Shown here in pieces: positions 5,806 to 39,902 of a stretch of DNA of 49,855 nt. The DNA comes from a virus. Made by a program: the position numbers and the translations under genes. The stretch's first letter is position 1. Each line of letters starts with the position of its first letter. The notes beneath the pieces were generated by a model that worked only from the letters and a program-made list of their open reading frames with translations, searched no databases and had not been told where the DNA came from. The stretch is taken from positions 1-49,855 of IMG/VR virus record IMGVR_UViG_3300031972_002168; one strand, given 5' to 3'.

Positions 5806-6001
5806 TGTAGGTAAAGATTATAAAAACGATGCAATGCATTATGCTGTAGGGCAAGAAGTTTACGGTGGCCATACTATTTGTGATATATTAGAAGAAGATG
5901 ACAAGTACTCTATATATATTAAAAAAAATAAAGATGTGTTACCTTGGAAAGACTTTAATAAAAATATGGCTGTATCTGTAGAGTATAATTTAGAATACTA
6001 A
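5780..6001 (+). CDS. Hypothetical small protein
   Basis: 73 residues, starting at ATG 5780 inside the previous gene and ending in a TAATG overlap with the following one. Strand-like segments predominate (GQEVYGGHTICDILEEDDKYSIYIKK, MAVSVEYNLEY). No signal, membrane segment or motif of known function is visible. The tight overlaps on both sides suggest it is translated as part of a coupled series 5497-6814 leading into the terminase genes. Confidence 0.55.
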   Translation: MAKLIRKISVGKDYKNDAMHYAVGQEVYGGHTICDILEEDDKYSIYIKKNKDVLPWKDFNKNMAVSVEYNLEY

Positions 6002-6591: not shown

Positions 6592-6814
6592 TGAATTAAT
6601 CAAAGTAGCAGAAGAAAAGATTATTACAAATACAGAAGATGATGTATCAGCTGATAGATTAAAAAACGCAGCAGCTACTAAAAAATTAGCTATATTTGAT
6701 GCATTTGAAATACTTAACAGAATCCAAGAAGAAGAAAACTTGCTTGAGGGAAAAACACCTAAAGAGACAGAGAAAAAAGCTTTTAAAGGATTCGCAGAAG
6801 GTAGATCTAAATAA
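6536..6814 (+). CDS. Putative terminase small subunit
   Basis: 92 residues from ATG 6536 (MSIKETKKSIIQAGRKAVDE), chosen because it begins a charged helical protein; a longer in-frame start at 6449 would add a sequence unlike a natural N-terminus. Entirely helical and highly charged, with a helix-loop-helix core (VAEEKII...DRLKNAAATKKLAIFDAFEILNRIQEEE). Small terminase subunits recognise concatemer DNA and hand it to the ATPase-nuclease. The evidence is the size, helical charge pattern and position directly before TerL with a TAATG overlap; no classic HTH can be pinned down. It overlaps the preceding gene by 56 bases. Confidence 0.5.
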   Translation: MSIKETKKSIIQAGRKAVDELIKVAEEKIITNTEDDVSADRLKNAAATKKLAIFDAFEILNRIQEEENLLEGKTPKETEKKAFKGFAEGRSK

Positions 6815-17611: not shown

Positions 17612-20600
17612 ATGCCAGAGATGAAGCGTAATTTTACCGGTGGTAAAATGAACAAAGATCTTAATGTAAGACTTGTTCCACCAGGTGAATATAGAGATGC
17701 TATGAATATAGAAATATCAACTTCAGATTCTTCTGATGTTGGTACTATTCAAAATATATCAGGTAATATTAAAGGTTGTAATTATAATGCCGCGTCACAG
17801 TATGTAGCGGCTAACAATACTAATTTTACTTACGTAAGTCAAACAGAAAATCCAGTTAAACCAGGTTCAACAACAGTAGCGTCTATATCTGACGAAAAAA
17901 ATAATTCTTTATATTGGTATGTTGCAGGACCAGCTTTTGAAGTTCCAAAAGATTTAGGTCCTACTGCAGATGGCGGTTTTAATGCTTCTACATCTTTTAA
18001 AGATATGATTATGCGTACTAATCACGATGTAAAAGTTTCTCCATCAAGATGTCAACCTGTATTTGTTGATCAATTTGCTTATTGCGCTGCTAATATAGCC
18101 GCAGATACCTCTACAGATACTATACTTCTTTATAGTCAAGATATCGATGGCAACGTTGGTGTAGATGAATCTATGTACGACAACATACAAGTTGGTATGA
18201 AAGTAACTGGTACAAGATGGGATCAAGATGTTTTAATTAAAGAATTTTCAAGTACTGTAGTAGGAGTTGGTTTTAAGAAAAAAATATCAGCAGTTTACGA
18301 GTCTGATACTGCTAACATTACACAAGCAGGTACTACTCAAATTATAGGACCAGGGCCAATTGGTAATGTAACTACTGGATTAAGACTTAGAACTTGGGAC
18401 AACGGTTTATCTTGTGAGTTTACTGATCCTTCAGATGGAGGTTTTAAAGCCAATACAGCTATAAATCAATATCCACCACCAGCAGGTCAAATTCAATTTT
18501 GGTATCCAGGAAGTCAAGCTATAGGCGGACCACAACTTCCAAACCTACCAACAGCATTTCAAAATACCCCTCCTACAAACTTAGTTGTTGGCGCAACTGT
18601 TAAAATTAAAAACGCAATTAGTGGTAATAATATTAGTAATCCTCAATATGATTTTGCTACACAACAGTGGAACTACGTAGATCAAGTTGGTACAATAACA
18701 AATGTTCGACTTGTTACTCTTGATATAGCTCCTTGTGTTGGCTCAGGTACAAAACAAGTGTGGTTAATAGATGTTGATGGATACGGTAACAGTATAAATA
18801 TAGGTAACGGTTTTATTGACTTTGTCGCTAGTGACGCTTGTGGCGCTATAAACCCAGCTACTGGACTAACATATTCAACAGCGCCGCCGGCAACTTCATC
18901 TCCACAGTTTACAAGTTACTATGATCCTTTTGGTCAAGTACAAACTGTAAATCCTTTGTGGTATGGCTGTACTGATCCTACTGCAAATAATTATAGTTCG
19001 TTAGCATATTACGACAACGGAACCTGTGCTTATTGCACGCCGTCTGATAGTCAGCTTTATACTTATAAAGAACTTGTTGCAGAAATACTAGCTCCAGATA
19101 TTCAAGTTCCAATACCTACTAATAGAATAAATATTACACAGTCTATATCTGGTGTTTCCGTGTTTTTTGCAAACGCATACGATATGTTGCGTGATGCTAA
19201 TGGTACTGCTATTCCTAATGTTAAGTTAAAAATAAATAATTCTAGTGGTGCTGGTAAATATTTTGTAAACAATTCTTGTGTTGATACTACTACGTTAACA
19301 TCTCCAAATCAAACTTTTCTTGATATAGTTGATTGTGATGATATGACTACACCTAACAATGCGCAGGGTTTTAACAGGCCTAAATACACGCTTACTTTTG
19401 ATCTTGTTGGCGCAAACACTGGTTTAAAGTCAATAACAATAAGTGATACTGTTGATTTATCAAGTGTTAATACAGTATGCTTTGAATCTGAAAGAATTTT
19501 AAATTTAGATCCTAATAGATTAATTACAGGTGTTAATATTATTGATAATTTATTATTTTGGACTGATAACTTTACAGAGCCTAAAAAAATAAATATAGAT
19601 CGTAGTATAAAAGGAACTGATCCTCGAGGTAATAAACATACTTTACTTATAAATGAATTAGCAGATATAAACACTTCAAACAACGAAGTAATACGCCAAG
19701 AACATGTTAATGTTATTAAAGGAGCGCCTAAACATCCTTTAACTTTAGATCTTTTAACAGGTAGAGATGAAAACTTAATATATACTGGTGTAATTAATAC
19801 TAGTGTTGATCCAGATTTTATAGGTGGTGTAAATACTTCTTCTATAGTTAGTAGTAGCAATCAAAATGTAATACATGATTTTAGTGATTTACAAGTTGAC
19901 GATACTATTAGACTTGTTATAGAGCAAGATATAAACGCTGCCAACTATAGTAGTATAAGTAATTTTAGTTTAAGCTGGAAACAAGGAGATTTTTTATTAC
20001 TAAAAGAATTTACAGATAGCGTAGGTAGTTCAGGCAGTGGTTTAGTTCCTGATTTGGTACCACTTGATGATCACACTATACGGTGCAAGATAACAGATTG
20101 GTCTGGTAATAGTTTTACCTCTAACAGTGCTTCTATAACATATGGTTCTCAATATCAGTCAGGTTCTAGCACAGGAGTTGCTGTTGTAGAAGTTGTTGTT
20201 GTTAGTATACCCTCGCGTCCTCCAGTACCAGAATTTGGATTAAACAACAATGAATTAAAATATGTAGTAGATTTAGAATCTAAAAAAGAACCTATATTTG
20301 AAAATAAATTTCCAAGATTTTCTTATAGATATAAATATCAAGACGGTGAATATTCAGCTTTTGCACCTTGGTCTGATGTTGCTTTTGCCGCTGGTAATCT
20401 TAATTTTGATGCTAAATACGGTTGGAATAACGGCATGATAAATAATGCTATAGAAATAAAGCTTAAAAACTTCACTAACAATATTCCTTTAGATGTTTCA
20501 GAGATAGATATATTATATAAAGAAGAAGGATCTCCTAATTGTTACATAGTAGAAACTATTAGCCCTTTAGATCCTTCTCCTGGACAAGTTCGTGGTGGTA

Positions 20601-23600
20601 GAGGTACAGTTCTTTTTACTGATCTTCCAAACGCTTGGTACGCAAACGAGTACTCTGTAAAATCTGAAACTATAAAATCTACCGTTTCTTCTAATCAACT
20701 TTTACGACCTTGGGACAATGTGCCTAAAAAAGCTTTAGCACAAGAAGTTACTGGTAATAGAATTATTTATGGTAACTACGAGCAGGGTTATAATTTAGGT
20801 AATTATAAACCTCAATTTAAATCTTATGTAACATCTTGGATTAATAAAAGTAAAGCGGGTGTATCTGCAAAATCAATAAAATCATTAAGAGAATATAACC
20901 TTGGTGTTGTATTTACAGACAAACAAGGAAGAGAAACACCTATATTAATTAGTAACACTGGTGGTTTTAAAATAGATAAAAGTAAATCTACAGATAGCAA
21001 TAGATTAGTAGCAGGATTAGTTGGTAGTCCACCTGAAAATGTAGATTATTTTAAGTTTTTTATAAAAGAAACATCTACTGAATATTATAATTTACCTATG
21101 GATCGTTGGTATCCAGCTGAAGATGGAAACATTTGGATAGCTTTTGCTTCTTCTGATATAAACAAAGTTGATATTGATACTACTTTGTTTTTAAAAAAAG
21201 GAGATTTATATGCTGTAGAAAATTCTTATAAGTATAAAATACTAGCAATAGAAGAGCAAGCTCCAATTTTTATAAAAACAAGAAAAGTACGTATAGGAAC
21301 TGTAGTTCATAATAGCGGAAGAGAAAATGGTGGTATATTTGGAGGGGGCTTTGGTAATTCACCTAATCCAGGTGGTGTTTCTTTTTCTATGAATTTTAGT
21401 GATGGCGATTTTGGTAAATCAAGTTTATCAGATTTAGATAGTATTACAGATGATTTATATATTAACTTTTTAACCCTTGAAGATGGTAAATCTCCACTTT
21501 ACAAAATATCTAAAATAACATCAACTAGAGGTATTGACGCTAACGATGATCAATTTGAGTATTTTGTAACTATTGACAAGCCTTTTAAAGATGATATAAA
21601 CTTTATATTTGACAACCCTTTAGATCCATCTAGTGTCAAAGATAACGTTAGTGTTCAATTTACTCAAGCTTTAATAGAAAACTCTCCTAAATTTGAAGGA
21701 AGATTTTTTGTTAAAATTGCTAATGATGGAGAAATAAAATTAGATATATCTACTGGCGACTTTGAAGGCGAGTATGTAGAAACAAGTTCTAAAATGGTAT
21801 ATCTTTTAGAAGATAAAAACCCAACTTGGTACACTGGCGCAGTTTCAGGTCAAAACACAGGAAAATCACCATTAAGAAAAGTAAGTGAACAAGCTTGGTA
21901 TCATCCATACGATATTTCTACAGGACCTACAGGAACAGCAAGACCTTTACATGAATATTTTGCTCAAAATGGTTTTCCAACAAATTGGATTACATTTGAA
22001 AATACAAATAATGCTGGTGGTACAAGTCTAAGAGGTGTATTACAGTTTGGTGGAGATGCTTTTCCACAAAGAGCAGGTGAGGAAGAATACATGAGATTAA
22101 ATGCTAGGCAATGTTTTTTTGGTCAAATACCAACAACAACTACATCTGATGGTACTGAACCTGCTACATATTTTACTAGTGGTAATACTGATTTTGGTGT
22201 TCCGGTTACTGATAGTAGTACACCTGGTATTGATATGAACGCTGGAAGTGGTGTTAATTCACATGGTTATGGTCCAGATGGTCCAAGACCAAGGTTTGAT
22301 GGCGTTTGGTTTATTGATAAAAGTCATCATAATTTTTGTAGGCCTCTTACAGGTAATAACACTGATAATCTTATATGGTATCAAGGCACAGGACCTATTA
22401 GGTTTGACGTGCCTGAAAGTCAATGGATTTCAGATGTTACAGCGGCTTCAGAAGGTAATATTCCTCAACCTGATGGTATTAATAAAATTGAAGGCTTAGA
22501 CTCTAGTATTATGGAGTTAAGCTTTGGAGGTTTTGGATATAAACTTTGGGATGATGGTGGACAAAGCGATAGTTTTAACAATAAAGGTTTATGGAGAAGA
22601 ATGTACGGCAATTCATTTAATAGTAGCCCGGGCACAAGTATACTTAAAGAAGATTCTTTTTTTGGCATTGGTACTACTAACGAAAATTATCCTGCAGAAA
22701 AATCTTTTGTAAATAAAATAAATCCTGGGCTTACTTTTAAATGGAACGATGATCCTAGCGGTACACTGTACACTATATCTATGATCAAAGAAAGAAATAT
22801 AGCTACTTTCCATAAAGAAAGTGGCAAGCTTTTTGGTAATATAGGTGGAACAAATTTTGATGATTATAATAACAAAATATACACAAAGCACTTTATAACA
22901 AATCCTGCTAATTATCTTAAAAACTGGAAAATTACTGTTCAACCAGAAATGAAGTGGAATCCAGCTGGTCCTGTTGGAAATAGAATACCTACTGGTTTAA
23001 GGATAGGTGAAGAATTTGAAAACCTTACAGGAAACTCAACAACAAGTGGAAATAACGTTATTACAGTTCAAAATGGACAGTTAGATAGTATAAAACTAGG
23101 TATGACGGTTCACGGTACTAATATTGCTAACTTTTCAAAAATTATAAGTATAGATGGAACAAATGTAACTTTAGATAAAGATGCTACTGGAACTGGATCA
23201 AGTTTAACTTTACAGTTTGGTTTTACTATAAGATTTGTTAGCAGTAACACACTTAACAATGATTTTTCAAACTGGACGCCGACAGTTGGTGATCCACATA
23301 TAGTAGTTGATAGTATACAAGCTACTTGCGCTGAAAACAATGAATTTGGGCAAAGGTATACACTTAGCAAAGGTATGAGATTATTTGCATACAACGATAT
23401 TACAACTAGTGGTAGCGCTGTAAACCCAGGAAATGATTATCGTGGCCATAGCAATTGTATTGTAAAAGAAGTTGGAAAATTTGACGGAGATCTTGGTGGT
23501 TACAAAATAACTTTAGCTGGTTATACTTCGCCACTTATACCTGCAGATGTTTTACCTACCGCTTTTACAGCTGGCACAACGATGCAGTTTGATCAAGTAA

Positions 23601-26600
23601 CTATGAACAGTGCTAGTAACAACACAGAAAGAAATAGTGATGTTTGTTTTGATTACCGACAGAAAATGACAACTCAAAATTTAACTCCAAATATTGAAGC
23701 TAAAACAGCTGGTATTGGAGCTGTTGGTTATAAACTATCAATGTTAGAACCTGTGGAAACTTATGAAGATGGTGGTGTTTTACCTCCAAACCCTTATGTT
23801 TGGGAGACAGAACCTAAAAGCGATGAAGGATTAGATGTTTATTATGAAATAAGTGAAAGTAATCCAATTTATTTAACTCCAGAAACTATAAACATAGCTA
23901 TTCCAATTGGTTCGTCAGTGCAGTTTGGCGCAAGTGGAGAAAATGCTGGTTCACTAGCAGATGATCCTGTACAACTTACAGTCACAGAAATAACTTTTGA
24001 TAATATAATTACTTTATCAAGACCTATTTATGTTGGAAGTGGCAACGGCGTTGGAACCGCACCTTATACAACCGCAAGTGGTGTTGAAATACAACCGGTA
24101 AAAAATGGAGATTCTATAAAAATAACAAGGCCTAGTGGCGTTGTATTTAATGTAAAAATAGATCAAGCCGTAGGTCCTTATGATCAAGGTTCTTTTACAA
24201 GAAGATTTAAACTAATGTCATCATCAATATATAATAGTGATTATTATTTAAATTGGCACAATTGTTATTCTTTTGGAAACGGTGTTGAATCTAATAGAAT
24301 TAGAGATAACTTTAGTTTACCTTTCATGTTAAATGGAGTTAAAGTTTCTACAACTTCAGAGCAAGATTACAAAGAAGAAAGAAGGAAGCACGGTTTAATA
24401 TATTCTGGAATATATAATTCTACATCAGGCGTTAATAATTTAAATCAGTTTATACAAGCTGAAAAAATAACAAAAGATTTAAACCCTGCTTATGGTAGTA
24501 TACAAAAGCTACACGCTGGCTGGGGTAGTGGTGGTGATTTAATATCTCTTTGCGAAGATAGAGTTGTTAAAATACTAGCTAATAAAGATGCTTTATTCAA
24601 TGCCGATGGAAATCCTAATGTTGTAGCTACAGATAAAGTTTTAGGTACAGCAACTCCTTATGCTGGTAAAAATGGTATATCTAAAAATCCAGAATCATTT
24701 GCTTCGTATTCTTATAGAGCTTACTTTACAGATAAAGTTAGAGGTAAAGTCATGAGATTATCTAAAGATGGTTTAACACCTATATCTGACGCTGGTATGA
24801 GAGATTGGTTTAGAGATAACTTAAAGTTTAACGCTACAAATTATCAAGCTTATCCATCTGCACACTCGCAACATGTTAATGATAAGTTGATCGGTAGTTA
24901 TGATGATAAAAAACAAGAGTATAACCTTACTATCAAGGTAATGCCAAGGCCTAGTAAAACTATTACATATAGAGAAGATGTTAAAGGTTGGACTACTTTT
25001 AAATCTTATATATCTGAAATGTCAAAAAGTTGTAATAATGAATATTATACTTTTAATCAAGGTGATTTATGGATACATCATATTGAAGGTACTGCCAGAA
25101 ATAATTTTTATGGAGCGCAATACTATTCAAGCTTTAAAGTTATTTTAAACGATGCGCCAGGAACTGTTAAAACTTTTCACACTTTAAATTACGAAGGATC
25201 TCAATCTAAAGTTGATAAAATGTTGTCATACGATACTTATGATCTTACTTCTTGGGATAACGCAACACAGTCTTATACTTCTGCTACAAATACCTATGTA
25301 AATAATGAGCATTATAATTTAGATAATAAAATTGGTTGGTTTGTTAGAAATATAAAAACCGACATGGAAGAAGGTTCTTTAAATGAATTTATAAAGAAAG
25401 AAGGAAAATGGTTTAACTATATAAAAGGTAAAAAGCAAACAAAATCTGGTTTTGGTGCTGGTGGTTTTGATAGTGCTGATATTTCTTTTCAAGGAATAGG
25501 TATACTACAACAAGGACAGGCGGTAGCAAGTGTGTTTGGTTGTACAAACCCTACAGCGTTTAATTACAATGCTGCGGCTAATGTTGATAACGGTACTTGT
25601 GAAGCCGTAGTAAATGGCTGTATGGATCCTTTAGCTGATAATTACAACTCAGCTGCAAATACAGATGCAGGTTGTATATTTGTAGGTTGTATGGATATTT
25701 CTTATCAAGAGTATAATCCTTTAGCGAATGATGGTGATCAAAGTGTCGAGTGTGTAAATATAGCTATATATGGATGTACAGACACGACTCAATTTTCAAG
25801 TGGCGGAAGTTTTTATCCTAACTATACTAACGCTGACAGTAGTTATTATGCTCCTTGTAATGAAACTAATTCACCTGGCAGTTGTGTTAGTGGTCAAATA
25901 GGTGATAATTGTTGTTGTCAACCAACTATAATAGGTTGTACAGATGCTAGCAAATTTAATTATAACGCTAGTGCTAATGTAGATGATCAATCGTGTATTG
26001 ATATATTAAATGGTTGTATAGATCCTATAGCGGCAAATTATAACAGCGCAGCTAACACCGATGATGGCAGTTGCTTTTTCAATGGTTGTACAGATCCTTT
26101 AGCTGTTAACTATGATGCAACTATCCTTGCTAGCGGTGGTACTGATGATGGTAGTTGTACATATCAATTAGATGGTTGTACAGACCCAACTGCGTTTAAC
26201 TACGATTCAAATGCTACTGATGACGATGGTTCTTGTATTCCAGTTGTAAATGGTTGCACAGATAGTACAGCATTTAATTATGATTCTACCGCTAATATCG
26301 ACGATGGCTCTTGTGAAGATGTAGTGTACGGATGTACTGATCCTACTCAAGTTAATTATAGTGCGCTTGCAAACACAGATGATGGTTCTTGTATTTTGCC
26401 TGTAAATGGTTGTACAGATCCAAACGCAGATAACTATGATGCTAATGCTAATGTTGATGATGGCAGCTGTACATATCCTACTGTAAATGGCTGTACAGAT
26501 GCTACGGCAAACAACTATGATCCATTGGCGAATACTGATGATGGTTCATGTACATATGATTTGGCTGGTTGTACAGATCCAGCGGCTAATAATTATGATG

Positions 26601-27094
26601 CCGCTGCTGTTGTAGATAATGGTTTATGTACATACGATATATTAGGTTGTACTGATCCAGCAGCTACTAATTATGATGCTTCGGCTAATAATAACGATGG
26701 TTCATGTACATATCCTAGTGCACAAACTTATTCTTTACTTATTAGTTCAACAGCAAGTCAAGGTAAGCTTGGAATACCAGTAAGCAAAGGCGCTATGTCA
26801 GCGTTCTTACAGCAATATATTGCAGATGCAGCGCCGCTTTCAATATATGGCTCTAATGACCCTTATGGTAATTCTTATCAACCGCAAAACTCACCTAATT
26901 TTAACAATGCATTTATTCCACCTGGGTTATTTAAGCTATTAAGAAACGGGCAGATTGTACGTGATGCAGGGTTTTTTGCTAGCACTCAATCAGCAAGTCT
27001 TAGTGTGTATATTAAATATGGAACTGGCACTGGTAATATTGGTGATTTTGTACCTGGTGATGAACTTATTGGTCCTGGTCACCCTAATTATTAA
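17612..27094 (+). CDS. Giant tail stabilisation protein with C-terminal Cys-rich repeats
   Basis: 3160 residues. The N-terminus MPEMKRNFTGGKMNKDLNVR, then EYRDAMNIEIS and GTIQNISGN, is the signature start of crAss-like tail stabilisation proteins. Further core blocks are FWTDNFTEPKKINIDRSIKG, FPRFSYRYKYQDGEYSAFAP and GISKNPESFASYSYRAYFTD with MRLSKDGLTPISDAGM. Such proteins usually have roughly 800-1000 residues (from memory), so about two thirds is added material. This includes beta modules (VTGT/VHGT type), one lone Cys-rich repeat at about residues 451-474, an array of 14 such repeats at about 2642-3035, and a final 125-residue domain ending VPGDELIGPGHPNY. It would form the tail hub with fibre-like extensions contacting the host. 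Confidence 0.8.
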   Translation: MPEMKRNFTGGKMNKDLNVRLVPPGEYRDAMNIEISTSDSSDVGTIQNISGNIKGCNYNAASQYVAANNTNFTYVSQTENPVKPGSTTVASISDEKNNSLYWYVAGPAFEVPKDLGPTADGGFNASTSFKDMIMRTNHDVKVSPSRCQPVFVDQFAYCAANIAADTSTDTILLYSQDIDGNVGVDESMYDNIQVGMKVTGTRWDQDVLIKEFSSTVVGVGFKKKISAVYESDTANITQAGTTQIIGPGPIGNVTTGLRLRTWDNGLSCEFTDPSDGGFKANTAINQYPPPAGQIQFWYPGSQAIGGPQLPNLPTAFQNTPPTNLVVGATVKIKNAISGNNISNPQYDFATQQWNYVDQVGTITNVRLVTLDIAPCVGSGTKQVWLIDVDGYGNSINIGNGFIDFVASDACGAINPATGLTYSTAPPATSSPQFTSYYDPFGQVQTVNPLWYGCTDPTANNYSSLAYYDNGTCAYCTPSDSQLYTYKELVAEILAPDIQVPIPTNRINITQSISGVSVFFANAYDMLRDANGTAIPNVKLKINNSSGAGKYFVNNSCVDTTTLTSPNQTFLDIVDCDDMTTPNNAQGFNRPKYTLTFDLVGANTGLKSITISDTVDLSSVNTVCFESERILNLDPNRLITGVNIIDNLLFWTDNFTEPKKINIDRSIKGTDPRGNKHTLLINELADINTSNNEVIRQEHVNVIKGAPKHPLTLDLLTGRDENLIYTGVINTSVDPDFIGGVNTSSIVSSSNQNVIHDFSDLQVDDTIRLVIEQDINAANYSSISNFSLSWKQGDFLLLKEFTDSVGSSGSGLVPDLVPLDDHTIRCKITDWSGNSFTSNSASITYGSQYQSGSSTGVAVVEVVVVSIPSRPPVPEFGLNNNELKYVVDLESKKEPIFENKFPRFSYRYKYQDGEYSAFAPWSDVAFAAGNLNFDAKYGWNNGMINNAIEIKLKNFTNNIPLDVSEIDILYKEEGSPNCYIVETISPLDPSPGQVRGGRGTVLFTDLPNAWYANEYSVKSETIKSTVSSNQLLRPWDNVPKKALAQEVTGNRIIYGNYEQGYNLGNYKPQFKSYVTSWINKSKAGVSAKSIKSLREYNLGVVFTDKQGRETPILISNTGGFKIDKSKSTDSNRLVAGLVGSPPENVDYFKFFIKETSTEYYNLPMDRWYPAEDGNIWIAFASSDINKVDIDTTLFLKKGDLYAVENSYKYKILAIEEQAPIFIKTRKVRIGTVVHNSGRENGGIFGGGFGNSPNPGGVSFSMNFSDGDFGKSSLSDLDSITDDLYINFLTLEDGKSPLYKISKITSTRGIDANDDQFEYFVTIDKPFKDDINFIFDNPLDPSSVKDNVSVQFTQALIENSPKFEGRFFVKIANDGEIKLDISTGDFEGEYVETSSKMVYLLEDKNPTWYTGAVSGQNTGKSPLRKVSEQAWYHPYDISTGPTGTARPLHEYFAQNGFPTNWITFENTNNAGGTSLRGVLQFGGDAFPQRAGEEEYMRLNARQCFFGQIPTTTTSDGTEPATYFTSGNTDFGVPVTDSSTPGIDMNAGSGVNSHGYGPDGPRPRFDGVWFIDKSHHNFCRPLTGNNTDNLIWYQGTGPIRFDVPESQWISDVTAASEGNIPQPDGINKIEGLDSSIMELSFGGFGYKLWDDGGQSDSFNNKGLWRRMYGNSFNSSPGTSILKEDSFFGIGTTNENYPAEKSFVNKINPGLTFKWNDDPSGTLYTISMIKERNIATFHKESGKLFGNIGGTNFDDYNNKIYTKHFITNPANYLKNWKITVQPEMKWNPAGPVGNRIPTGLRIGEEFENLTGNSTTSGNNVITVQNGQLDSIKLGMTVHGTNIANFSKIISIDGTNVTLDKDATGTGSSLTLQFGFTIRFVSSNTLNNDFSNWTPTVGDPHIVVDSIQATCAENNEFGQRYTLSKGMRLFAYNDITTSGSAVNPGNDYRGHSNCIVKEVGKFDGDLGGYKITLAGYTSPLIPADVLPTAFTAGTTMQFDQVTMNSASNNTERNSDVCFDYRQKMTTQNLTPNIEAKTAGIGAVGYKLSMLEPVETYEDGGVLPPNPYVWETEPKSDEGLDVYYEISESNPIYLTPETINIAIPIGSSVQFGASGENAGSLADDPVQLTVTEITFDNIITLSRPIYVGSGNGVGTAPYTTASGVEIQPVKNGDSIKITRPSGVVFNVKIDQAVGPYDQGSFTRRFKLMSSSIYNSDYYLNWHNCYSFGNGVESNRIRDNFSLPFMLNGVKVSTTSEQDYKEERRKHGLIYSGIYNSTSGVNNLNQFIQAEKITKDLNPAYGSIQKLHAGWGSGGDLISLCEDRVVKILANKDALFNADGNPNVVATDKVLGTATPYAGKNGISKNPESFASYSYRAYFTDKVRGKVMRLSKDGLTPISDAGMRDWFRDNLKFNATNYQAYPSAHSQHVNDKLIGSYDDKKQEYNLTIKVMPRPSKTITYREDVKGWTTFKSYISEMSKSCNNEYYTFNQGDLWIHHIEGTARNNFYGAQYYSSFKVILNDAPGTVKTFHTLNYEGSQSKVDKMLSYDTYDLTSWDNATQSYTSATNTYVNNEHYNLDNKIGWFVRNIKTDMEEGSLNEFIKKEGKWFNYIKGKKQTKSGFGAGGFDSADISFQGIGILQQGQAVASVFGCTNPTAFNYNAAANVDNGTCEAVVNGCMDPLADNYNSAANTDAGCIFVGCMDISYQEYNPLANDGDQSVECVNIAIYGCTDTTQFSSGGSFYPNYTNADSSYYAPCNETNSPGSCVSGQIGDNCCCQPTIIGCTDASKFNYNASANVDDQSCIDILNGCIDPIAANYNSAANTDDGSCFFNGCTDPLAVNYDATILASGGTDDGSCTYQLDGCTDPTAFNYDSNATDDDGSCIPVVNGCTDSTAFNYDSTANIDDGSCEDVVYGCTDPTQVNYSALANTDDGSCILPVNGCTDPNADNYDANANVDDGSCTYPTVNGCTDATANNYDPLANTDDGSCTYDLAGCTDPAANNYDAAAVVDNGLCTYDILGCTDPAATNYDASANNNDGSCTYPSAQTYSLLISSTASQGKLGIPVSKGAMSAFLQQYIADAAPLSIYGSNDPYGNSYQPQNSPNFNNAFIPPGLFKLLRNGQIVRDAGFFASTQSASLSVYIKYGTGTGNIGDFVPGDELIGPGHPNY
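18962..19026 (+). repeat. Isolated Cys-rich repeat unit in the tail protein
   Basis: A single copy of the GCTDPTANNYSSLAYYDNGTC unit sits about 2200 residues before the main array. It shows the same spacing (GCTDP, NY, DNGTC) as the array and is followed by AYCTPSD. Confidence 0.8.
25534..26716 (+). repeat. Array of 14 GCTDP...DDGSC protein repeats (tail protein)
   Basis: Coding repeats of about 26 residues (78 bases), 14 units including divergent ones. The consensus is G-C-T-D-P-x-A-x-N-Y-(D/N)-x-x-A-N-x-D-D-G-S-C. Each unit has two cysteines, presumably one disulphide per unit once outside the cytoplasm, and the Asp-rich end could bind Ca. Later units (from about 25940) are more regular than the first four; one is expanded around a CCC segment. 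DNA identity between units is moderate, so this is an old array rather than a recent duplication. Confidence 0.9.
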
Positions 27095-30598: not shown

Positions 30599-31336
30599 AT
30601 GGGCATAGCAACAGCAGTGACAATAGGTACATCTTTGTATGGCATTTACAGCTCTAGCCAAATGCGTGAACAAGCTGAATCACAAGCCAAAGAAGCTTTA
30701 GCTGCAAGAAAAGAGCAGCAAGATAAAGTAGATGCAGAAATGGCTAAATATAGAGCTATGAAGTTTACAAATCCATATGCTGACATGGAAAATACTTTTG
30801 AAGATTTAAGAGTGTCTACCGCTGCTGCTGAGTTTCAAGCAGATCAAGGTGCTCAGCAAAGAGCAGATATATTAAGTCAACTACGTGGTGCTGCTGGGCC
30901 TAGCGGTGTTGCTGGTTTAGCACAAATGCTAGCTAATCAAGGTCAATTACAAGCAAGGGCAATATCTGCTGATTTACAAAAACAAGAAGTAATGAACGAA
31001 AGGCTTAGAGCTACAGGCGCACAAAAAGTAGCGCAACTACAAGCGAGTGGTGATGCAATGGTTCAACAAGCTGAATCTGGAAGGCAAGCTAGTATATTAG
31101 GCGCTCAGTATGGCCAAGCTGCTGGTGCTAATGTAGATTATCAAAGAGCTTTATTAAACCAACAATATGCTGATCAAGCTGCTGATCAAATGATGATTAG
31201 TAGCTTAGGTTCGTTAGCTGGTAGTATAGGTGATGTTGATTTTGGTAAATTAGGAGGAAAATTTAAAAGTTTTGGTGATCAATTTAAAAGAATAGGTATT
31301 TTTAATAGGATGGATGAAATGGTTAAAATTCCTTAA
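30599..31336 (+). CDS. Internal virion (ejection) protein, putative
   Basis: 245 residues. A short hydrophobic start (GIATAVTIGTSLYGIYSS) is followed by a long Ala/Gln-rich helical region (REQAESQAKEALAARKEQQD, SGVAGLAQMLANQGQLQARA, QQYADQAADQMMISSLGSLA), then a Gly/Phe/Lys tail. This composition, size and location between tail genes and very large virion proteins match T7 gp14-like internal core proteins that are ejected into the host envelope with the genome. The Ala/Gln-rich helices could insert in membrane or form a channel. No sequence match is claimed. Confidence 0.6.
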   Translation: MGIATAVTIGTSLYGIYSSSQMREQAESQAKEALAARKEQQDKVDAEMAKYRAMKFTNPYADMENTFEDLRVSTAAAEFQADQGAQQRADILSQLRGAAGPSGVAGLAQMLANQGQLQARAISADLQKQEVMNERLRATGAQKVAQLQASGDAMVQQAESGRQASILGAQYGQAAGANVDYQRALLNQQYADQAADQMMISSLGSLAGSIGDVDFGKLGGKFKSFGDQFKRIGIFNRMDEMVKIP

Positions 31337-31354
31337 TAGATTAAAAAATAAAAT

Positions 31355-33166
31355 ATGGCAACAAGTTTACTAGGAAAAGCAGATGCAACAATTGCAGATA
31401 TGTCTCTAAAAGAGGCTATGGCTGATGTTACACCTAACTTAAAAAGTGTATATGATGAAAAAGTAAAAACACAAGCTTTGCTTCAAACTAAAGTTGAAGC
31501 TTATTTTGACGGATTAAACAAAGAAAACAATGCTTTATCTGACATGTTAGATGAAACGTTAAACACAACTGTTGAGGGCGCTGATAATGAAGTAACTCAA
31601 GACATGTATTTTAACTTTATTAATCCTATGCGAGATGAGATAGAAGGTTTACCTAATACCAGAGAAGGTGATTTACAAAGAGCGAAAATAAAAGCTAAAC
31701 TAAATAGATTAAAAGATAACGCCGCTACTACAAGTCAAACTTTAATTGATTTAAAAACTAAAGTTTTAAATCAAGATTATAATGTAGATGGTACTGGTGG
31801 TCCAACTTTAGCGTTTCTTAATCAAATAGCTAATGGCTCTGTTAAAAGAAGCATTAGTGACGATGGTAGAATAGTATTTACCAACCCTGCTACTGGTGAA
31901 AAAGTTGATGAAAAAGGTTTGAGAGCTTTAATAGCTGCAAAAGATCCTAATGACAGCGCTGGTTTTAATAAAGTAACAGTTGGTGCCAATGCAAATGGTA
32001 AAACTGGTAAAACTTTTGAAGATAGTTACCAATCTTATGTAAACGATTATTATAAATCTTTTAAAACAAAAACTGGTTTTGCAGATAACATACATACAAG
32101 GCAAGAAGGTTTAGAATTTACTTTTGCAGAATATTTATCAGGTAAAGGCGATGGTACAGAAAATATGAAAATATTTGATGCTTTAAGAAAAATCATGCCA
32201 GATCAAATACCACAAGATAAAACTGGTGACGGTAAAATTACAGCAGAAGATTTTGCTAGTCCAGAAAATGCTATAAAGCTAATAAAATCATTAACACAAA
32301 TAAACAACCCTGAAAGTGAAGGTGGTTTTAATTTTCAACTAGCAAAGCAAGTTGCAGCTGAATTTTATACAGATAATATAGCAAGAAAAGAGCACCAAGA
32401 TGGTATGACTATATTTAATAGAGCTAGTAATAGAGGTGGTGGTGGTATTAACGAGGAAGGAGGAACAGGCTTTTTAACAACTAAAAAAGGTGTTAATAGC
32501 GGCTCTTTAGGTTATTATGTTTTTCCTGATTTCAACAGCGCTAAATTTGCTTATGATCAATTTAATTTGGCTAGTAAAGGTGAAAAAGCTAAATTTAGTA
32601 TAGGTAAAGCTCAATATGTTTTTGATGTTAAAGGAGATAATGCTTATAAATGGATTGAAAAAACAGCTGGTGGTGACCAAAGAGTTTTAGGTACAACTAC
32701 CGAAACAATAGGACCTGATGGATTTGGTATAACAGATCCTGATTTTTTAAAAATAAATAACTTTGAAGGCTCAAGTACTAATGAAATAGAAAAATTTGAA
32801 GGTTTAGGTAATACAAAACAAATTGGATTAACTTTTGAAAATTTTCAACAAGATGAATATAATTTTACAACTTCTTTACAAGAAAAGTATGATTTAAGTA
32901 ATTTTGTAATTAAAGATACACCTGGAATTACAACAAGTTTACTTGGTTTTGGAGAATCTTTTGGAAATGCTATTGACATTGTTGATAAATCATCTGGTAG
33001 AGTAATATATAGAGATCGTACAAATTATACTGACAATGAAAAAGCACAAGCAGCTGCTGATAGATTTAATGAATTTTTAACAAAATACAATATTAAATTA
33101 AAAGATCCAACAGCAGGAATGAGTGCAAAAGAAAGAATCGAATATTACCAAAAAAATCCAAAATAA
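31355..33166 (+). CDS. Large internal virion protein, putative
   Basis: 603 residues, mostly soluble and mixed helix/strand. The first 150 residues are helical (SLLGKADATIADMSLKEAMA, QTLIDLKTKVLNQDYNVDG), the remainder is globular. Around residue 290 there is an EF-hand-like loop, DKTGDGKITAED, with Asp at positions 1, 5 and 12. No peptidase or lysozyme motif is evident. The gene lies between the internal-protein candidate and the 2244-residue polyvalent protein (1-base gap to its start), the position of ejected proteins in podoviruses. Role inferred from position and size. Confidence 0.55.
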   Translation: MATSLLGKADATIADMSLKEAMADVTPNLKSVYDEKVKTQALLQTKVEAYFDGLNKENNALSDMLDETLNTTVEGADNEVTQDMYFNFINPMRDEIEGLPNTREGDLQRAKIKAKLNRLKDNAATTSQTLIDLKTKVLNQDYNVDGTGGPTLAFLNQIANGSVKRSISDDGRIVFTNPATGEKVDEKGLRALIAAKDPNDSAGFNKVTVGANANGKTGKTFEDSYQSYVNDYYKSFKTKTGFADNIHTRQEGLEFTFAEYLSGKGDGTENMKIFDALRKIMPDQIPQDKTGDGKITAEDFASPENAIKLIKSLTQINNPESEGGFNFQLAKQVAAEFYTDNIARKEHQDGMTIFNRASNRGGGGINEEGGTGFLTTKKGVNSGSLGYYVFPDFNSAKFAYDQFNLASKGEKAKFSIGKAQYVFDVKGDNAYKWIEKTAGGDQRVLGTTTETIGPDGFGITDPDFLKINNFEGSSTNEIEKFEGLGNTKQIGLTFENFQQDEYNFTTSLQEKYDLSNFVIKDTPGITTSLLGFGESFGNAIDIVDKSSGRVIYRDRTNYTDNEKAQAAADRFNEFLTKYNIKLKDPTAGMSAKERIEYYQKNPK

Positions 33167-33167
33167 T

Positions 33168-36100
33168 ATGGAAGAATTAGAGCAAATTGTTCAAAGAATG
33201 ATGGACGCTGGTGAGTCTGAAGAAAACATTAAAGCCGTTATATTAGAATATAATAAAATGGGAAAAGCACAAGGCTCGACGGTAGACTCGACGATGAGCC
33301 CAAGTACTATGGGGTCACAATTGGAGGTTGGTTTATTGGAGCCACAAAAAGAACTGTCTGACTCAGAGCAGTTTAAAAATGTTTTTAATAATGCAGGGTT
33401 AAGTTTACAACAGGCGTGGGAAAGTACTAAAATTGCAGGAGCTCAATTTGGTAGCTATTTAGGTATAAGCAACGAAAGTGAAGTTGATAATTATGTAGTT
33501 GAGCAGTATAAAAAATTAGATGAAATATCTGCTAAAATGAGTGATACTGGTAAAGGTATTATTAAGGGTATAAAAGAAGGTGATGTAGCCGATGTTGGGA
33601 TAGGTGTTGCTAACGCCTTAACAAGCGTTATAACTACAGTAGCACCAGCTGTGTTAACAAGAGGAGCTTCTTTAATACCACAGATAATGGCGCCTATGTA
33701 TACAGAGTATAATTCTGAAAAAGCTAAAGCACTTTATGGTAAAGACGATGAAAGAGCTATTGAAAAATTAATAGAAAACAATGAAGGTGAAGTAGCCGTG
33801 CCAATGGCGCTGGGCGCTGCTTCTGTTGCTTTAGAAAGAATAGGTATAAAAGGTATTAGTAAATATGTTTTAAATAATGCTAGAACAAAAGGAGCTAAAA
33901 GAATTGCTGATTTAACACTAACTGGTAACAAAGAAGGTTTAACAGAATATTTTCAAGGTGGTTTAAATGTAGCAAATAAAAGTTTAGCGCAAGGTGATGA
34001 TGCAGGAACTGTTAGTAAAAAAGTTTTTGATCACATGTCTAGTGAAGCTGCTTTTGAAGAATATGTACAGGGCTTTGTTGGTGGCGCCGGTGTTTCTGCT
34101 GGTAGTGCTAAAATAAACTCTGCTTTTAGAGATCAAAATGATAATATAATAGTAAATAATTATGTTAATGCTTTAGGCGCTTTAAATCAACAAAAAGTAA
34201 ACTCAAAAACTCAAGAAGCTAAAAACGCTGTAGATAAAAAAATAAAAAAAGTAGAGCAGCAGTTTAAAAATTTTTTAATAACAAATCAAAAAAAATCAGA
34301 ATACCTAACTGAAGAACAAGCTACAGAAGCTATTAGTATATTAGACGGCAAAAACGAACTAAATGTTAAAATAAAAAATATAAATAATCAGTTAAAAAAT
34401 GGTGATATAAACAAAAATGAATATGATTTAATATTAGAAGATGTAAACTCTGAGTTAGAAGCTAGTGATAAAAAATTAAATGATATTAAAATAGAGGCTA
34501 ATAAAAAGCTTTTACAAGATGATTTAAGAATTAGTAATGAAGCAATAAGTAAAATAAGAGGTTTGTCTAAACCAAAGGTTTACAAAACAGCTGAAGGATT
34601 TTTAAAAGCGCTAAACGCTAGAAGTAAAAAACAATATACTTTAGATGAAATAAAAAATATTGACGGCACGGTTATAGGTAAAGAAATATTGATAAACGAA
34701 ATTGTAGCTGCAGAAAATAATGCTATTACTGTGGGTTCTCACGAGTTATTACATGCTATTGTAAAATCTTCTATAACAGGTGAAGTAAGAAAAATAAAAG
34801 ATGAAAATGGTAATATAGTTGAAACAGATTTGACTACAGAAGGTGCTACTTTAATAAAAGATTTTTTAAACGAGCTTAGTTCAAAAGAGAGAAAAATAGT
34901 ACAAAAAAGAATAGACGATAACTATCGATACAACAAAGATAAATCTGAAAAAGCATTTGAACAATATGCTGAAGAGTATTTAAACGCATATGCTGACGCT
35001 GCTATTAAAAACGAGCTTAACGACGGTTTGTTAAATAAAATAGGTAAGTTTTTACAAAAAATATTTAACAGTGGTAATAATGGTTATCAAGATTTAAATT
35101 TTAAAACAGGTAAAGATGTTAAAACTTTTTTAAAAGCATACGTATCAGATAGAAAAAAAGGTCAGTTTAGAGAACAGTTTGTTGAAATGGCAAAGGAAGG
35201 TGTTAAACAAAAAACTAAAACTAATATTGTTAAAAAATCTATAACAGAAGATACGTTTGATAAAATAAATAATCTTATACCAAAAGATGTAAAAACAAAA
35301 GATGATTTTGATAAATTTTTTATTGATCCCGCAAGAAACAAAGAGTTAGGTAAAGCTTTAGCACCGGGTGGTTTAATAGACAATATTGTAAAACAAAAAA
35401 GTATTGGTGATGAATATGAAAAAACTATAGATGGTGTTAGAGATAGAGTCATGGGTTATGATCCTGCTGCAAAAAGAAAAACAGGTGATGAAACGCCTGT
35501 AACGTTTGCTGAAAGAATATTTGCCGACACTAGATTTGCACGTATGGATGCTAGAAAAGCTTTAGCAACTAAAAAGCCTACTACTACTATAGATACAAAA
35601 GAAGCTAAAGAATTAGTTGAAGAAACAGCAAGTCAACAAGAAGAATTAAGCATAACAAAAGCTAGAGAATTAAAAAACTTTGATGTTGAGTTAGAAGATG
35701 GCTTAGTCGATGCTGAAATTGAAGCTGAGGTTGAAGCGCTAATAGAACAAAATCCTCCAGATTTAAAAGAGCGTTTAGGTAAATTAGTTAAAAAAGATTT
35801 TAGAAAAAAGCTTGACAATGCTATAGGTAAAATACGTAAAGTAGAAGGTAAAGTTGAGATCGATCCAGAATACGAGGCTTTTATTAGAGACGAGTACAAC
35901 GAAATAGTAAATAGTTTTAGTATAGTACAAATAAGAACTACATATAAAAATTTATTTGATCGTGAAAAAGTTGGCGTTGAAGATGTTAAAAAAATTGATC
36001 GTGAAACAGGTAAAGTAACTTACTTTAGAAAAGATAAATTCATAAATAAAATAAATAAACCTAAGTTTATAAAATACTTTACACAAGGTGGGTTTACAAC

Positions 36101-39100
36101 CATAAGAGAAAGAAGAAATAGTTTACTTACTCGTATTGCTGAAAGAAAAACAGATATAGTAATAGACAACTATATTGAAAGAAACTCAAAAGATATAAAT
36201 AAAGTTGTACAAGCTAAATTAAGAGGTTTATCTAGAACAGAAGATAATGCTTTAAATGAATTAAAAACTTTTGATACTATTAAATATTCTTTAACAAACG
36301 AATTTAATAATATTAAAAAAATAGTAGATACTGGTAAGAAATATATAAATCCAAACTTTGAAAACTCTAAGCCACAAACTTTTGCTGATGATGGTAGAAT
36401 ATGGGAACAGGCGTTTGCTAATTATTTTCATAAGTTAGGTATACCAGGTTTAGAAGTTAAATCAACGCGTATCGGTGAAAGTGGTGGTATGGCAGATTTT
36501 GTATTTCAAATATTAGGTGATAAAGAAAACCATGAAATAAAAGGTGGTTTAGATCAAGTGTTTATGGGTAGCACTTTAGTTAACAACTTTAACATTGAAA
36601 CTGGTGAGTTTACTTTAGCTAATGAAGCACAACTTGGTATTGAAGGTTTAGACAACTTAATGAAAAATGAAGTAAAATCTAAACTAAAACAAATAACAGA
36701 TTTTGTAAACGAAGAAATAAATGCTTATAACGAAAGCAATAATACTAATATAAAGCCTGTAAGCAATATAGTAAAAGGTAAGAAAAATTATAATTTTTTC
36801 CCTGATGAAATATATCAAAAAATTAACAAAAAGTTTGGTAATAAAGAATTAGGCGTAAAAATAGTAAAAGATACACCTTCAAAAAAAGGTCCTATAAGAA
36901 CTAATTATTCAACCAAAGTTGATAAAGATGGCTTAGCTGTTAATTCAATAACTATTTTAAATACACCGCAATTTGGCAATGCAACATTTAATCTTGATGA
37001 ATCTTCATTGCTTAACATGGGTAAAAAGCCAGCGCCTGGACTTGAGGCAGATGTACAGGTTAGAGTTAGTGTTGGTACTTCTGGTCATAAAACGATTAAT
37101 GGTATAAAGTCTAGAAAACTTCAAGTACGTATACAGCTTAAAATAGATAAAATACTAAATAAGAAAAACGAAATAGTAGATATTACAACATTAGGAGGTT
37201 TTATGGATGCTACTATAAACGCTGGTATTTCAAAACCAAACTTACCAACTGTTAAAAGCTTGCAAAAAGCTAAAAATATAGCTAGCACGCCTTTAAAATA
37301 TAGTATTTCAAGCAGAGGCATGAGTACTTTTGATTTTGATGAAACACTTATTATTGATGGTGAAAACTTTATAATAGCTAAAAATCCTTCTACTGGAGAA
37401 GAAGTTAAAATAAGTAGTGGTAATTGGCCTTTAGAAGGCCCAAGATATACTGAGCAAGGTTATGAATTTGATTTTACAGATTTTGTAAATGTAAGAGGAG
37501 GTGTTGACGGACCTTTGTTGCAAAAAATGAAAAACCAAATTGAAAAGTTTGGGCCTAAAAATGTTTTTGTTTTAACTGCTAGACCAGCTTCTAGTGCTAA
37601 AGCAATACACGAGTGGTTAAAAACAAAAAATATAAATATACCTTTTGATAATATTACTGGTCTAGGTAATAGTACTGGTGATGCAAAAGCGATGTGGATG
37701 CTTGATAAATTTGCTGAAGGCTATAATGACATGTACTTTGTAGACGATGCCTTGCCTAATGTAGAAGCTGTTAAAAACGCATTAGAACAACTTGATATAA
37801 AATCTAAAGTACAACAAGCTAAGGTTAAGTTTAGCCAATCAATGAATAATGACTTTAATAAAATACTAGAAGATGTTACTGGTATTGATGCTGTAAAACG
37901 TTTTTCAGATATTAAAGCTAGGAAACGTGGAGAAAAAAAAGGTAAATTTAGATTTTTTATACCACCGTCACATGAAGACTTTGTAGGTTTACTGTACAAC
38001 TTTATGGGTAAAGGTAGAAAAGGTGATCAACATAGAGACTTTTTTGAGCAAGCTTTAGTTAGGCCTTTAAATAGAGCATATAGAGAAATAGATACAGCCA
38101 AACAAGCTATAGCAAATGATTATAAAGCTTTAAATAAACAGTTTGAAGATATTAAAAAGAAGCTTAGAAAGAAAACTCCAGATGGTGATTTTATATTTGA
38201 AGATGCAATAAGAGTTTACCTTTGGAATAAACACGGTTATGATATACCAGGTTTATCACCAACTGATCAACAAAATTTAGTTGAAATGGTAATGAACGAT
38301 AACGAACTACGTTCTTATGCTGATGCTATTAATATTATTTCTAAACAAGATAAATATGTAGATCCAGGAACAGGTTGGGAAGGTGGTAATATACAAACTG
38401 ATTTAATAGATGCTACCGGTAGAGTTGGTAGAGCAGAATACTTTGCTGAGTTTAATGAAAACGCTAATATATTATTTTCAACTGAAAACTTAAATAAAAT
38501 AGAAGCTGCATATGGTAAAGACTTTAGAAGTGCTTTAGAAGATATGCTACATAGAATTAGCACGGGTATTAATAGACCAAAAGGACAAACCGGTACTGTT
38601 AACAAGTTTATGAATTATTTAAATGGTTCTGTTGGTACAGTTATGTTCTTTAACGTAAGATCTGCAATACTACAGCAAATGTCTATTGTAAACTATATAA
38701 ACTTTGCTGATAACAATATGTTTGCAGCAGCCAAAGCTTTTGCTAATCAACAACAATACTGGGCTGATTTTGCTTTTATATTTAACTCTGACATGTTGAA
38801 ACAAAGAAGAGGTGGTATTGGCACAGATATTAACGGCGCTGATCTTGCACAAGCGGTTAAAGGATCAAAACAGCCAACTAAAGTTGTTATAAGTAGGTTG
38901 TTAAAATTAGGATTTTTACCTACACAAATTGGTGATAATATTGCAATTGCTACTGGTGGAGCTACTTTTTATAGAAACAGAATAAACAAATATATTAAAG
39001 ATGGTTTAAGTAAAAAAGAAGCAGAAACAAAAGCGTTTACTGATTTTCAAGATTTAACACAATCAACTCAGCAGTCATCAAGGCCTGATATGACATCACA

Positions 39101-39902
39101 ACAACAATCTAGTTGGATAGGTAAACTAGTATTAAACTTTCAAAATATTACATCGCAGTATAATAGAATAATTAAAAAAGCTGCTTTAGATGTGTATAAA
39201 AGAAGAATATCACCACCATACACTACGCAAACACAAAGTGATTTAGGTAATTTATCTAAAATATTATATTATGGTGGTATACAAAATGTTATATTTTATA
39301 GCTTACAAACAGCTTTGTTCGCTGTTATGTTTGATGATGACAATGATGAAGATCAAATATTAAAGAAAAGAGAAAGAGTTATAAATGGCAGTATTGACTC
39401 TATACTAAGAGGTGCTGGTATATATGGTGCTGTTGCTTCTACTTTAAAAAACACTCTTATTAAATTTAAAGAACAAAGAGAAAAAGGTTATAATAAAGAT
39501 GAAAGCGCTGTACCAATGGAGCTATTAAACTTTTCACCTGTAGTTGGTATTAAAATAAGACAAATAGTTAATGCTGAAAAAACTTTAAATTACAACGAAA
39601 ATGTTATAAATGAAATGGAAACATTTGAAGCTGATAATCCAATGTGGTCTGCTGTGACTAATTATACACAAGCTTTAACTAATTTTCCAGCTAATAGGTT
39701 GTATCAAAAAAGTATAAACATGCGTAACGCTCTTGACAAGGACTATACTAACTTCCAAAGAGTTTTATTTTTTAGTGGTTATACAACTTGGAGCTTAGGC
39801 TTAGGTGATACAGAGGCTGTTATAGAAGCAAAAGAAAAAATTCAAATAAATAAGAAGAACACTAAAAAAAGAAAACGATCTGGGTTGCCAAAGTTTAATT
39901 AA
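33168..39902 (+). CDS. Giant polyvalent virion protein (zincin-, nuclease- and HAD-like)
   Basis: 2244 residues from ATG 33168 (MEELEQIVQRMMDAGESEEN); an upstream in-frame ATG at 33123 lies inside the previous gene. The N-terminus is helical, with a hydrophobic segment about residues 144-168. At about 524 there is a zincin motif (GSHELLHAIVKSS). At about 1080-1125 the order WEQAFANYF, GGMADFVFQ, NHEIKGG fits a PD-(D/E)XK nuclease. At about 1385-1550 the order FDFDETLI, VFVLTARPAS, YFVDDALPNVEAV fits a HAD phosphatase. A helical C-terminal third includes STQQSSRPDMTSQQQSSW, as in other phage polyvalent proteins. It would be ejected with the DNA and act early in the cell. Activities are inferred from motifs only. 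Confidence 0.65.
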   Translation: MEELEQIVQRMMDAGESEENIKAVILEYNKMGKAQGSTVDSTMSPSTMGSQLEVGLLEPQKELSDSEQFKNVFNNAGLSLQQAWESTKIAGAQFGSYLGISNESEVDNYVVEQYKKLDEISAKMSDTGKGIIKGIKEGDVADVGIGVANALTSVITTVAPAVLTRGASLIPQIMAPMYTEYNSEKAKALYGKDDERAIEKLIENNEGEVAVPMALGAASVALERIGIKGISKYVLNNARTKGAKRIADLTLTGNKEGLTEYFQGGLNVANKSLAQGDDAGTVSKKVFDHMSSEAAFEEYVQGFVGGAGVSAGSAKINSAFRDQNDNIIVNNYVNALGALNQQKVNSKTQEAKNAVDKKIKKVEQQFKNFLITNQKKSEYLTEEQATEAISILDGKNELNVKIKNINNQLKNGDINKNEYDLILEDVNSELEASDKKLNDIKIEANKKLLQDDLRISNEAISKIRGLSKPKVYKTAEGFLKALNARSKKQYTLDEIKNIDGTVIGKEILINEIVAAENNAITVGSHELLHAIVKSSITGEVRKIKDENGNIVETDLTTEGATLIKDFLNELSSKERKIVQKRIDDNYRYNKDKSEKAFEQYAEEYLNAYADAAIKNELNDGLLNKIGKFLQKIFNSGNNGYQDLNFKTGKDVKTFLKAYVSDRKKGQFREQFVEMAKEGVKQKTKTNIVKKSITEDTFDKINNLIPKDVKTKDDFDKFFIDPARNKELGKALAPGGLIDNIVKQKSIGDEYEKTIDGVRDRVMGYDPAAKRKTGDETPVTFAERIFADTRFARMDARKALATKKPTTTIDTKEAKELVEETASQQEELSITKARELKNFDVELEDGLVDAEIEAEVEALIEQNPPDLKERLGKLVKKDFRKKLDNAIGKIRKVEGKVEIDPEYEAFIRDEYNEIVNSFSIVQIRTTYKNLFDREKVGVEDVKKIDRETGKVTYFRKDKFINKINKPKFIKYFTQGGFTTIRERRNSLLTRIAERKTDIVIDNYIERNSKDINKVVQAKLRGLSRTEDNALNELKTFDTIKYSLTNEFNNIKKIVDTGKKYINPNFENSKPQTFADDGRIWEQAFANYFHKLGIPGLEVKSTRIGESGGMADFVFQILGDKENHEIKGGLDQVFMGSTLVNNFNIETGEFTLANEAQLGIEGLDNLMKNEVKSKLKQITDFVNEEINAYNESNNTNIKPVSNIVKGKKNYNFFPDEIYQKINKKFGNKELGVKIVKDTPSKKGPIRTNYSTKVDKDGLAVNSITILNTPQFGNATFNLDESSLLNMGKKPAPGLEADVQVRVSVGTSGHKTINGIKSRKLQVRIQLKIDKILNKKNEIVDITTLGGFMDATINAGISKPNLPTVKSLQKAKNIASTPLKYSISSRGMSTFDFDETLIIDGENFIIAKNPSTGEEVKISSGNWPLEGPRYTEQGYEFDFTDFVNVRGGVDGPLLQKMKNQIEKFGPKNVFVLTARPASSAKAIHEWLKTKNINIPFDNITGLGNSTGDAKAMWMLDKFAEGYNDMYFVDDALPNVEAVKNALEQLDIKSKVQQAKVKFSQSMNNDFNKILEDVTGIDAVKRFSDIKARKRGEKKGKFRFFIPPSHEDFVGLLYNFMGKGRKGDQHRDFFEQALVRPLNRAYREIDTAKQAIANDYKALNKQFEDIKKKLRKKTPDGDFIFEDAIRVYLWNKHGYDIPGLSPTDQQNLVEMVMNDNELRSYADAINIISKQDKYVDPGTGWEGGNIQTDLIDATGRVGRAEYFAEFNENANILFSTENLNKIEAAYGKDFRSALEDMLHRISTGINRPKGQTGTVNKFMNYLNGSVGTVMFFNVRSAILQQMSIVNYINFADNNMFAAAKAFANQQQYWADFAFIFNSDMLKQRRGGIGTDINGADLAQAVKGSKQPTKVVISRLLKLGFLPTQIGDNIAIATGGATFYRNRINKYIKDGLSKKEAETKAFTDFQDLTQSTQQSSRPDMTSQQQSSWIGKLVLNFQNITSQYNRIIKKAALDVYKRRISPPYTTQTQSDLGNLSKILYYGGIQNVIFYSLQTALFAVMFDDDNDEDQILKKRERVINGSIDSILRGAGIYGAVASTLKNTLIKFKEQREKGYNKDESAVPMELLNFSPVVGIKIRQIVNAEKTLNYNENVINEMETFEADNPMWSAVTNYTQALTNFPANRLYQKSINMRNALDKDYTNFQRVLFFSGYTTWSLGLGDTEAVIEAKEKIQINKKNTKKRKRSGLPKFN

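Follow-up and report, generated by a model that had tools for sequence, protein, structure and literature searches.

Giant proteins that join unrelated enzymes in a single chain have been described from phages and conjugative elements as polyvalent proteins (Iyer et al., 2017; PMC5512222). Their zincins combine HEXXH with a glutamate on a second helix and have been linked to the lethal factor peptidase, and an internal zincin of this kind is thought to cut its own polypeptide (PMC5512222). Here we consider a protein of 2244 amino acids (aa) that resembles this class and is encoded in IMG/VR record IMGVR_UViG_3300031972_002168, positions 1 to 49,855; this whole stretch of 49,855 nucleotides is called the window in the following. 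As in the described set, unrelated enzymes occur in one giant chain, a zincin of the HEXXH-plus-glutamate kind is present, the gene lies among virion genes, and relatives carry LPD and toxin-like modules. Regarding the features of the class, domains of at least two unrelated activities have been found in one chain, and the gene is near late virion genes. The protein differs from the set in its HAD domain, as the main text of that survey mentions neither phosphatase, nor haloacid (HAD), nor polynucleotide kinase.

Three other systems are close in part. The N4-type virion RNA polymerase is also ejected as a giant chain that contains a zincin; unlike that type, no RNA polymerase module has been identified in the 2244-aa protein, and virion RNA polymerase is found among its weak structural matches at rank 20 (E ~1, not significant). 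T4 Pnkp and related enzymes share the HAD phosphatase fold, and a P-loop kinase adjoins the HAD domain in one relative (L010); unlike T4 Pnkp, the window is without a kinase, and its HAD domain is placed inside a virion protein and has motifs I and II separated by a long insertion. Cellulophaga phage phi40:1 gp101 is likewise a giant protein in the last slot of a colinear virion cluster and has been annotated as structural from tandem mass spectrometry (MS/MS), but it has 1691 aa, carries neither HExxH nor a HAD motif, and no sequence match between the two has been found. With cultured phages in general, the family has no detectable sequence in common beyond weak zincin and C-terminal matches. 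The giant multi-enzyme virion type is thus already known, and a HAD domain in a polyvalent protein, the swapping of modules, and a junction motif look new.

We consider it probable that an uncultured flavobacterial podovirus has in this protein a polyvalent component of its virion, which is packaged, probably ejected, and equipped with a self-cleaving zincin, a HAD phosphatase and, where present, a nuclease. The evidence bears directly on which domain signatures are present, on how far they are conserved, on the modelled HAD fold and on the place in the virion cluster, whereas packaging, ejection, self-cleavage and substrates are inferred. An earlier note on this DNA had assigned signatures of all three enzymes to this one protein, and they have been borne out, with the residues at the places it gave and conserved in relatives.

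Constant core and variable middle

The reading frame runs for 2244 codons without a stop and would encode 2259 aa if an upstream GTG were used. Searches with the whole protein against Pfam, PHROG and PDB sequences gave nothing significant, and the domain signatures have therefore been tested through relatives. Querying IMG/VR with the whole protein yielded 11 relatives, the complete ones of 2391-3787 aa and one cut at a contig end, and a profile of the HAD segment reached 223 loci; in the 80 loci that were read, uncut open reading frames (ORFs) have 2138-3601 aa. The HAD domain has been found within a giant ORF in 80/80 of these loci, HExxH is present in all relatives' ORFs except two, both of which are 5'-cut, and the order of zincin, variable middle, HAD and C-terminal domain is constant. 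Zincin, HAD and the C-terminal domain (~660 aa) are thus the constant core, and the nuclease is an accessory module, observed in 12 of ~91 relatives. The three enzymes named in the earlier note thus occur together in the window protein, but not throughout the family. Other effector-type modules among the relatives, which we count in favour of a polyvalent protein, are Zeta_toxin/AAA_33, LPD14, glucosaminidase and DUF5763. The last has been seen in four long relatives as a Cys/His-rich tail (best 3e-7) behind the conserved C-terminal domain.

Among 50,697 cultured phage records, tblastn has found no match to the 2244-aa protein. In bacterial genomes, the HAD domain was restricted to two contigs, both in metagenome-assembled genomes and probably viral. 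With more than 200 metagenomic loci, a constant zincin-HAD core and no cultured member found in these records, a large family of giant virion proteins has so far been unannotated.

The divergence of the family is pronounced. Compared with the window terminase, those of 36 relatives mostly show 80-94% identity, whereas the zincin region is mostly 15-30% identical, as expected for a conflict protein, which we count in favour of the polyvalent reading. Even where the terminase is closest to that of the window (99%), the same contig has a HAD domain of only 51% and a C-terminal segment of only 53% identity, and the gene has therefore been exchanged, or it evolves much faster than the phage core.

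HAD domain and kinase exchange

FDFDET (1388-1393), TARP (1470-1473) and DDALPN (1526-1531), together with K1507, give HAD motifs I (DxDxT; D1389/D1391), II (T1470), III (K1507) and IV (D1526/D1527) in canonical order. All four are invariant in 11 aligned proteins, which are 60-75% identical to the window HAD, and invariant or nearly so across relatives. When contigs were fetched by their terminase and not by motif, the HAD domain was found in 10 of them at 29-71% identity, and the motifs were kept in 8/8 loci read out, several of which show DFDDT in place of DFDET. All 11 of these proteins are matched by Pfam DUF2608, at best with 1.3e-5, and eight by PHROG 415, polynucleotide kinase, at best with 0.003. 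AlphaFold2 predicts a HAD fold within aa 1040-1575 (mean predicted local distance difference test score, pLDDT, 79.6), and VIA-align of this model has returned T4 Pnkp at Z 11.8 (116-127 residues, 2.2-2.4 Å) and bacterial Pnkp1 at Z 11.3, followed by other HAD phosphatases at Z ~9-10, the top structural rows being mostly HAD enzymes. Matches of the HAD profile to ResA cover ~40 residues and have been discarded as chance. In two relatives (L192 and L194), ~200 extra residues between motifs I and II form a large cap insertion.

Within the HAD enzymes, the best structures and the best PHROG agree on a possible kinship to Pnkp, by small margins. Regarding the substrate, the domain may instead be a phosphatase of nucleotides or small molecules, e.g., of defence signal nucleotides, and not a polynucleotide 3'-phosphatase, a possibility that we take seriously, though we lean slightly away from it; it concerns the substrate only and is compatible with a polyvalent virion protein. 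Many small-molecule HADs score within ~Z 2 of the Pnkp matches, no RNA ligase was found in the ORFs scanned, and DUF2608 is the sole Pfam family matched by all members, whereas the top two structure groups and the top PHROG are polynucleotide kinase/phosphatases, and in one relative a P-loop kinase is fused directly behind the HAD domain.

This kinase (L010; AAA_33 5e-10) has a counterpart in a relative without HAD (L200), in which a kinase (AAA_33 6.5e-12; 37% identity to the L010 kinase) occupies the HAD position and the family profile recovers the C-terminal domain at 2e-269. Since HAD alone, HAD with kinase, and kinase alone have been observed, the slot ahead of the C-terminal domain takes a phosphatase, a kinase or both. 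The HAD phosphatase and, in relatives, the swappable kinase would be additions to the phage enzymes so far described as injected. An RNA ligase was considered as a repair partner, as Pfam RNA_ligase matched in 9/15 large relatives. Scanning of two of the ORFs showed ATP-dependent DNA ligases, which give no support for RNA repair; PF09511 matched none of the sequences scanned, controls included.

Zincin, nuclease-like module and junction motif

The zincin motif HELLH occupies residues 525-529, and across 57 aligned sequences with 17% mean column identity, H525, E526, H529 and E603 are the sole invariant columns; the longest relatives likewise retain HExxH and a later glutamate. In the AlphaFold2 model of aa 391-745 (mean pLDDT 79.7, ~90 near the site), three strands precede the HExxH helix, and E603 is placed on a later helix. 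These four residues and the modelled order of helices fit the zincin type of polyvalent proteins, which is the commonest domain of the class but not obligatory. Among solved structures, the metallopeptidase domain of anthrax lethal factor has been matched at Z 5.7 (root-mean-square deviation 4.7, 150 residues) in a list dominated by one long helix, and Foldseek against the PDB has found nothing better than E 0.6. Zincin profile matches have been obtained to Flavobacterium phage elemo gp21 (2e-9) and to a giant gene of the Manatee Spring podovirus (1e-6).

For the nuclease-like module, the 12 sequences that bear it are down to 24% identical and share G1076, E1080, Q1081, E1104, A1109, D1110, E1123 and K1125 without exception, among which E1080, D1110 and E1123-x-K1125 follow the residue order of PD-(D/E)XK nucleases. 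The modelled order of elements, helix-strand-strand-strand-helix-strand, is that of the PD-(D/E)XK fold, and the model thus supports this fold for aa 1071-1222. A fold search with the model covering nuclease and HAD returned a list filled by HAD matches, and the nuclease profile has reached Holliday junction resolvase as a weak match at E 0.85.

A short motif, [VIL]K[FY]S, stands ahead of the nuclease-like module (IKYS), ahead of HAD (LKYS) and behind it (VKFS). In the N-terminal parts of 91 relatives it has been counted 35 times, compared to 13.7 ± 3.2 in shuffles, and in their C-terminal domain not at all. Where local alignments between relatives end, the motif is at most 20 residues away in 270 cases, compared to 81 ± 23 at random positions (0/200 draws as high), counts that are not independent, as the sequences are related. 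Four control motifs have shown no association with these ends. The looser [KR][FY]S is not enriched over the N-terminal parts (112 vs. 100), so that enrichment and breakpoint association are limited to the stricter form. This form is itself not enriched when giant genes from cultured relatives are counted. The motif may be a zincin processing site, a linker or a recombination junction, and it offers a testable candidate site for the question of which role the zincin plays in polyvalent proteins. Taking this further, one may postulate a self-processing injected polyprotein whose zincin would cut at these motifs and free a Pnkp-like HAD that mends or modifies nucleic-acid ends at entry, the motifs being at the same time the sites of module shuffling; in this full form we regard it as rather unlikely.

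Virion gene cluster and proposed course

The podovirus of the window has its kin in Flavobacterium phage elemo, the Cellulophaga phages phi40:1/phi38:1 and phi46:3, Maribacter phage Panino and Tenacibaculum phage Gundel. From the portal through the 245-aa gene, most window genes match phi40:1 in the same order, and the cluster from the portal to the 2244-aa gene is colinear with phi40:1 gp91-gp101, the 2244-aa gene being last, in the gp101 slot. In phi40:1, gp91-93, gp95 and gp97-101 have been annotated as structural from experimental MS/MS. Calle, elemo and Gundel each have a gene with a structural label in the same slot; elemo gp21, which the zincin profile matches, is labelled structural as well, and so is Gundel gp74, to which the C-terminal domain has a profile match at 4e-10. 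We infer packaging because the gp101 slot is MS/MS-annotated and the homologues in elemo and Gundel are labelled structural. The earlier note had placed the protein with ejected ones; its gene does stand at the end of the virion cluster, and ejection itself is suggested by the analogy to the polyvalent class. Crassviruses, whose hosts belong to the same phylum, have been described to store and eject large cargo proteins (PMC10172136).

In the course we propose, the 2244-aa protein would be made late alongside the virion genes, packaged as the final member of a set of internal (ejection) proteins, and would probably enter the cell together with the DNA. The zincin would most likely cut its own giant chain, either while still in the head or once inside the cell, and the [VIL]K[FY]S junctions are possible cleavage sites. 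The freed HAD domain would remove phosphate, with nucleic-acid 3' ends or nucleotides as the most likely substrates, and could counter host-defence damage or signals, and the PD-(D/E)XK module, where carried, would cut DNA. That three enzymes enter the host simultaneously is plausible; given the self-cutting proposed for zincins of the described class (PMC5512222), they may instead arrive one by one, or the role of the zincin may be that of a protease in maturation.

The gene order 245-603-2244 aa (30599-39902) is reminiscent of the T7 internal core genes gp14-gp15-gp16, to which no sequence match was found. The zincin could instead be a maturation protease only and the protein a structural scaffold for the ejection channel, comparable to the T7 internal core protein that comes last, with HAD and nuclease active in capsid assembly or DNA packaging. 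We judge this improbable. The last place in the internal-protein order would suit such a scaffold, as would the glucosaminidase of one relative, an enzyme type fitting for an internal protein that crosses the cell wall, but phages with 80-99% identical terminases differ by exchange of the enzyme modules that lie between zincin and C-terminus, unlike an assembly part, and every catalytic residue is kept.

Several points weigh against the polyvalent virion protein that we prefer. The zincin model matches solved metallopeptidases weakly, [VIL]K[FY]S as a cleavage site is putative, the HAD specificity is not set by the modelled fold, given the scores of other HAD phosphatases, and the presumed RNA ligase partner is a DNA ligase. 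As homology to gp101 is undetected, packaging rests on the slot and on the more distant homologues, and the virion role in this phage and its close relatives is read from their genes. On this last ground, the protein might be a non-virion, late intracellular enzyme of host takeover encoded beside virion genes, which appears very doubtful, as the slot is MS/MS-detected in phi40:1 and the structural labels in Calle, elemo and Gundel include genes with the homologous zincin (elemo) or C-terminal domain (Gundel).

Table 1. Features of the giant protein and of the virion cluster (positions in the window; for the kinase, in the relatives)
Feature	Position	Strand	Evidence
Giant polyvalent virion protein (probable), 2244 aa	33168..39902	+	open frame; IMG/VR relatives
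Zincin metallopeptidase domain, ~aa 480-625; H525, E526, H529, third ligand E603	34605..35042	+	alignment, AlphaFold2
Junction motif IKYS, aa 1038-1041	36279..36290	+	
PD-(D/E)XK nuclease-like module (accessory), aa 1071-1222; E1080, E1104, D1110, E1123, K1125	36378..36833	+	relatives, AlphaFold2
Junction motif LKYS, aa 1376-1379	37293..37304	+	
HAD phosphatase domain, aa 1384-1556; D1389, D1391, T1470, K1507, D1526, D1527	37317..37835	+	motifs, AlphaFold2, Pfam, PHROG
Junction motif VKFS, aa 1553-1556	37824..37835	+	
Conserved C-terminal domain, aa 1570-2224	37875..39839	+	in all full-length relatives; profile match Gundel gp74
P-loop kinase module (AAA_33/Zeta_toxin)	L010 aa 2839; L200 aa 1907-2059		
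Terminase large subunit	6814..9027	+	PHROG 6681 6e-173
Portal protein, head of colinear virion cluster	9032..11449	+	PHROG 6547 1e-152
3160-aa tail protein, phi40:1 gp97 homologue, crassvirus muzzle C-terminal domain	17612..27094	+	profile 8e-136; PF25729 1.8e-8
245-aa gene, homologue of phi40:1 gp99 (MS/MS structural)	30599..31336	+	profile match 3e-7
603-aa gene in phi40:1 gp100 slot (MS/MS structural)	31355..33166	+	position; no sequence match found

Further genes of the window have been assigned in passing. The muzzle domain of the 3160-aa protein ties these podoviruses to crassvirus tails. A GroEL-like protein (18-1367, PF00118 2e-44) and a GroES-like protein (6001-6591, PHROG 13932) are encoded, and GroES adjoins the terminase in elemo, phi46:3 and Calle too. 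Behind the giant gene, a 918-aa protein (43762-46518) carries a MAM domain (PF00629 4e-22), an adhesion-type domain that is usual in eukaryotes.

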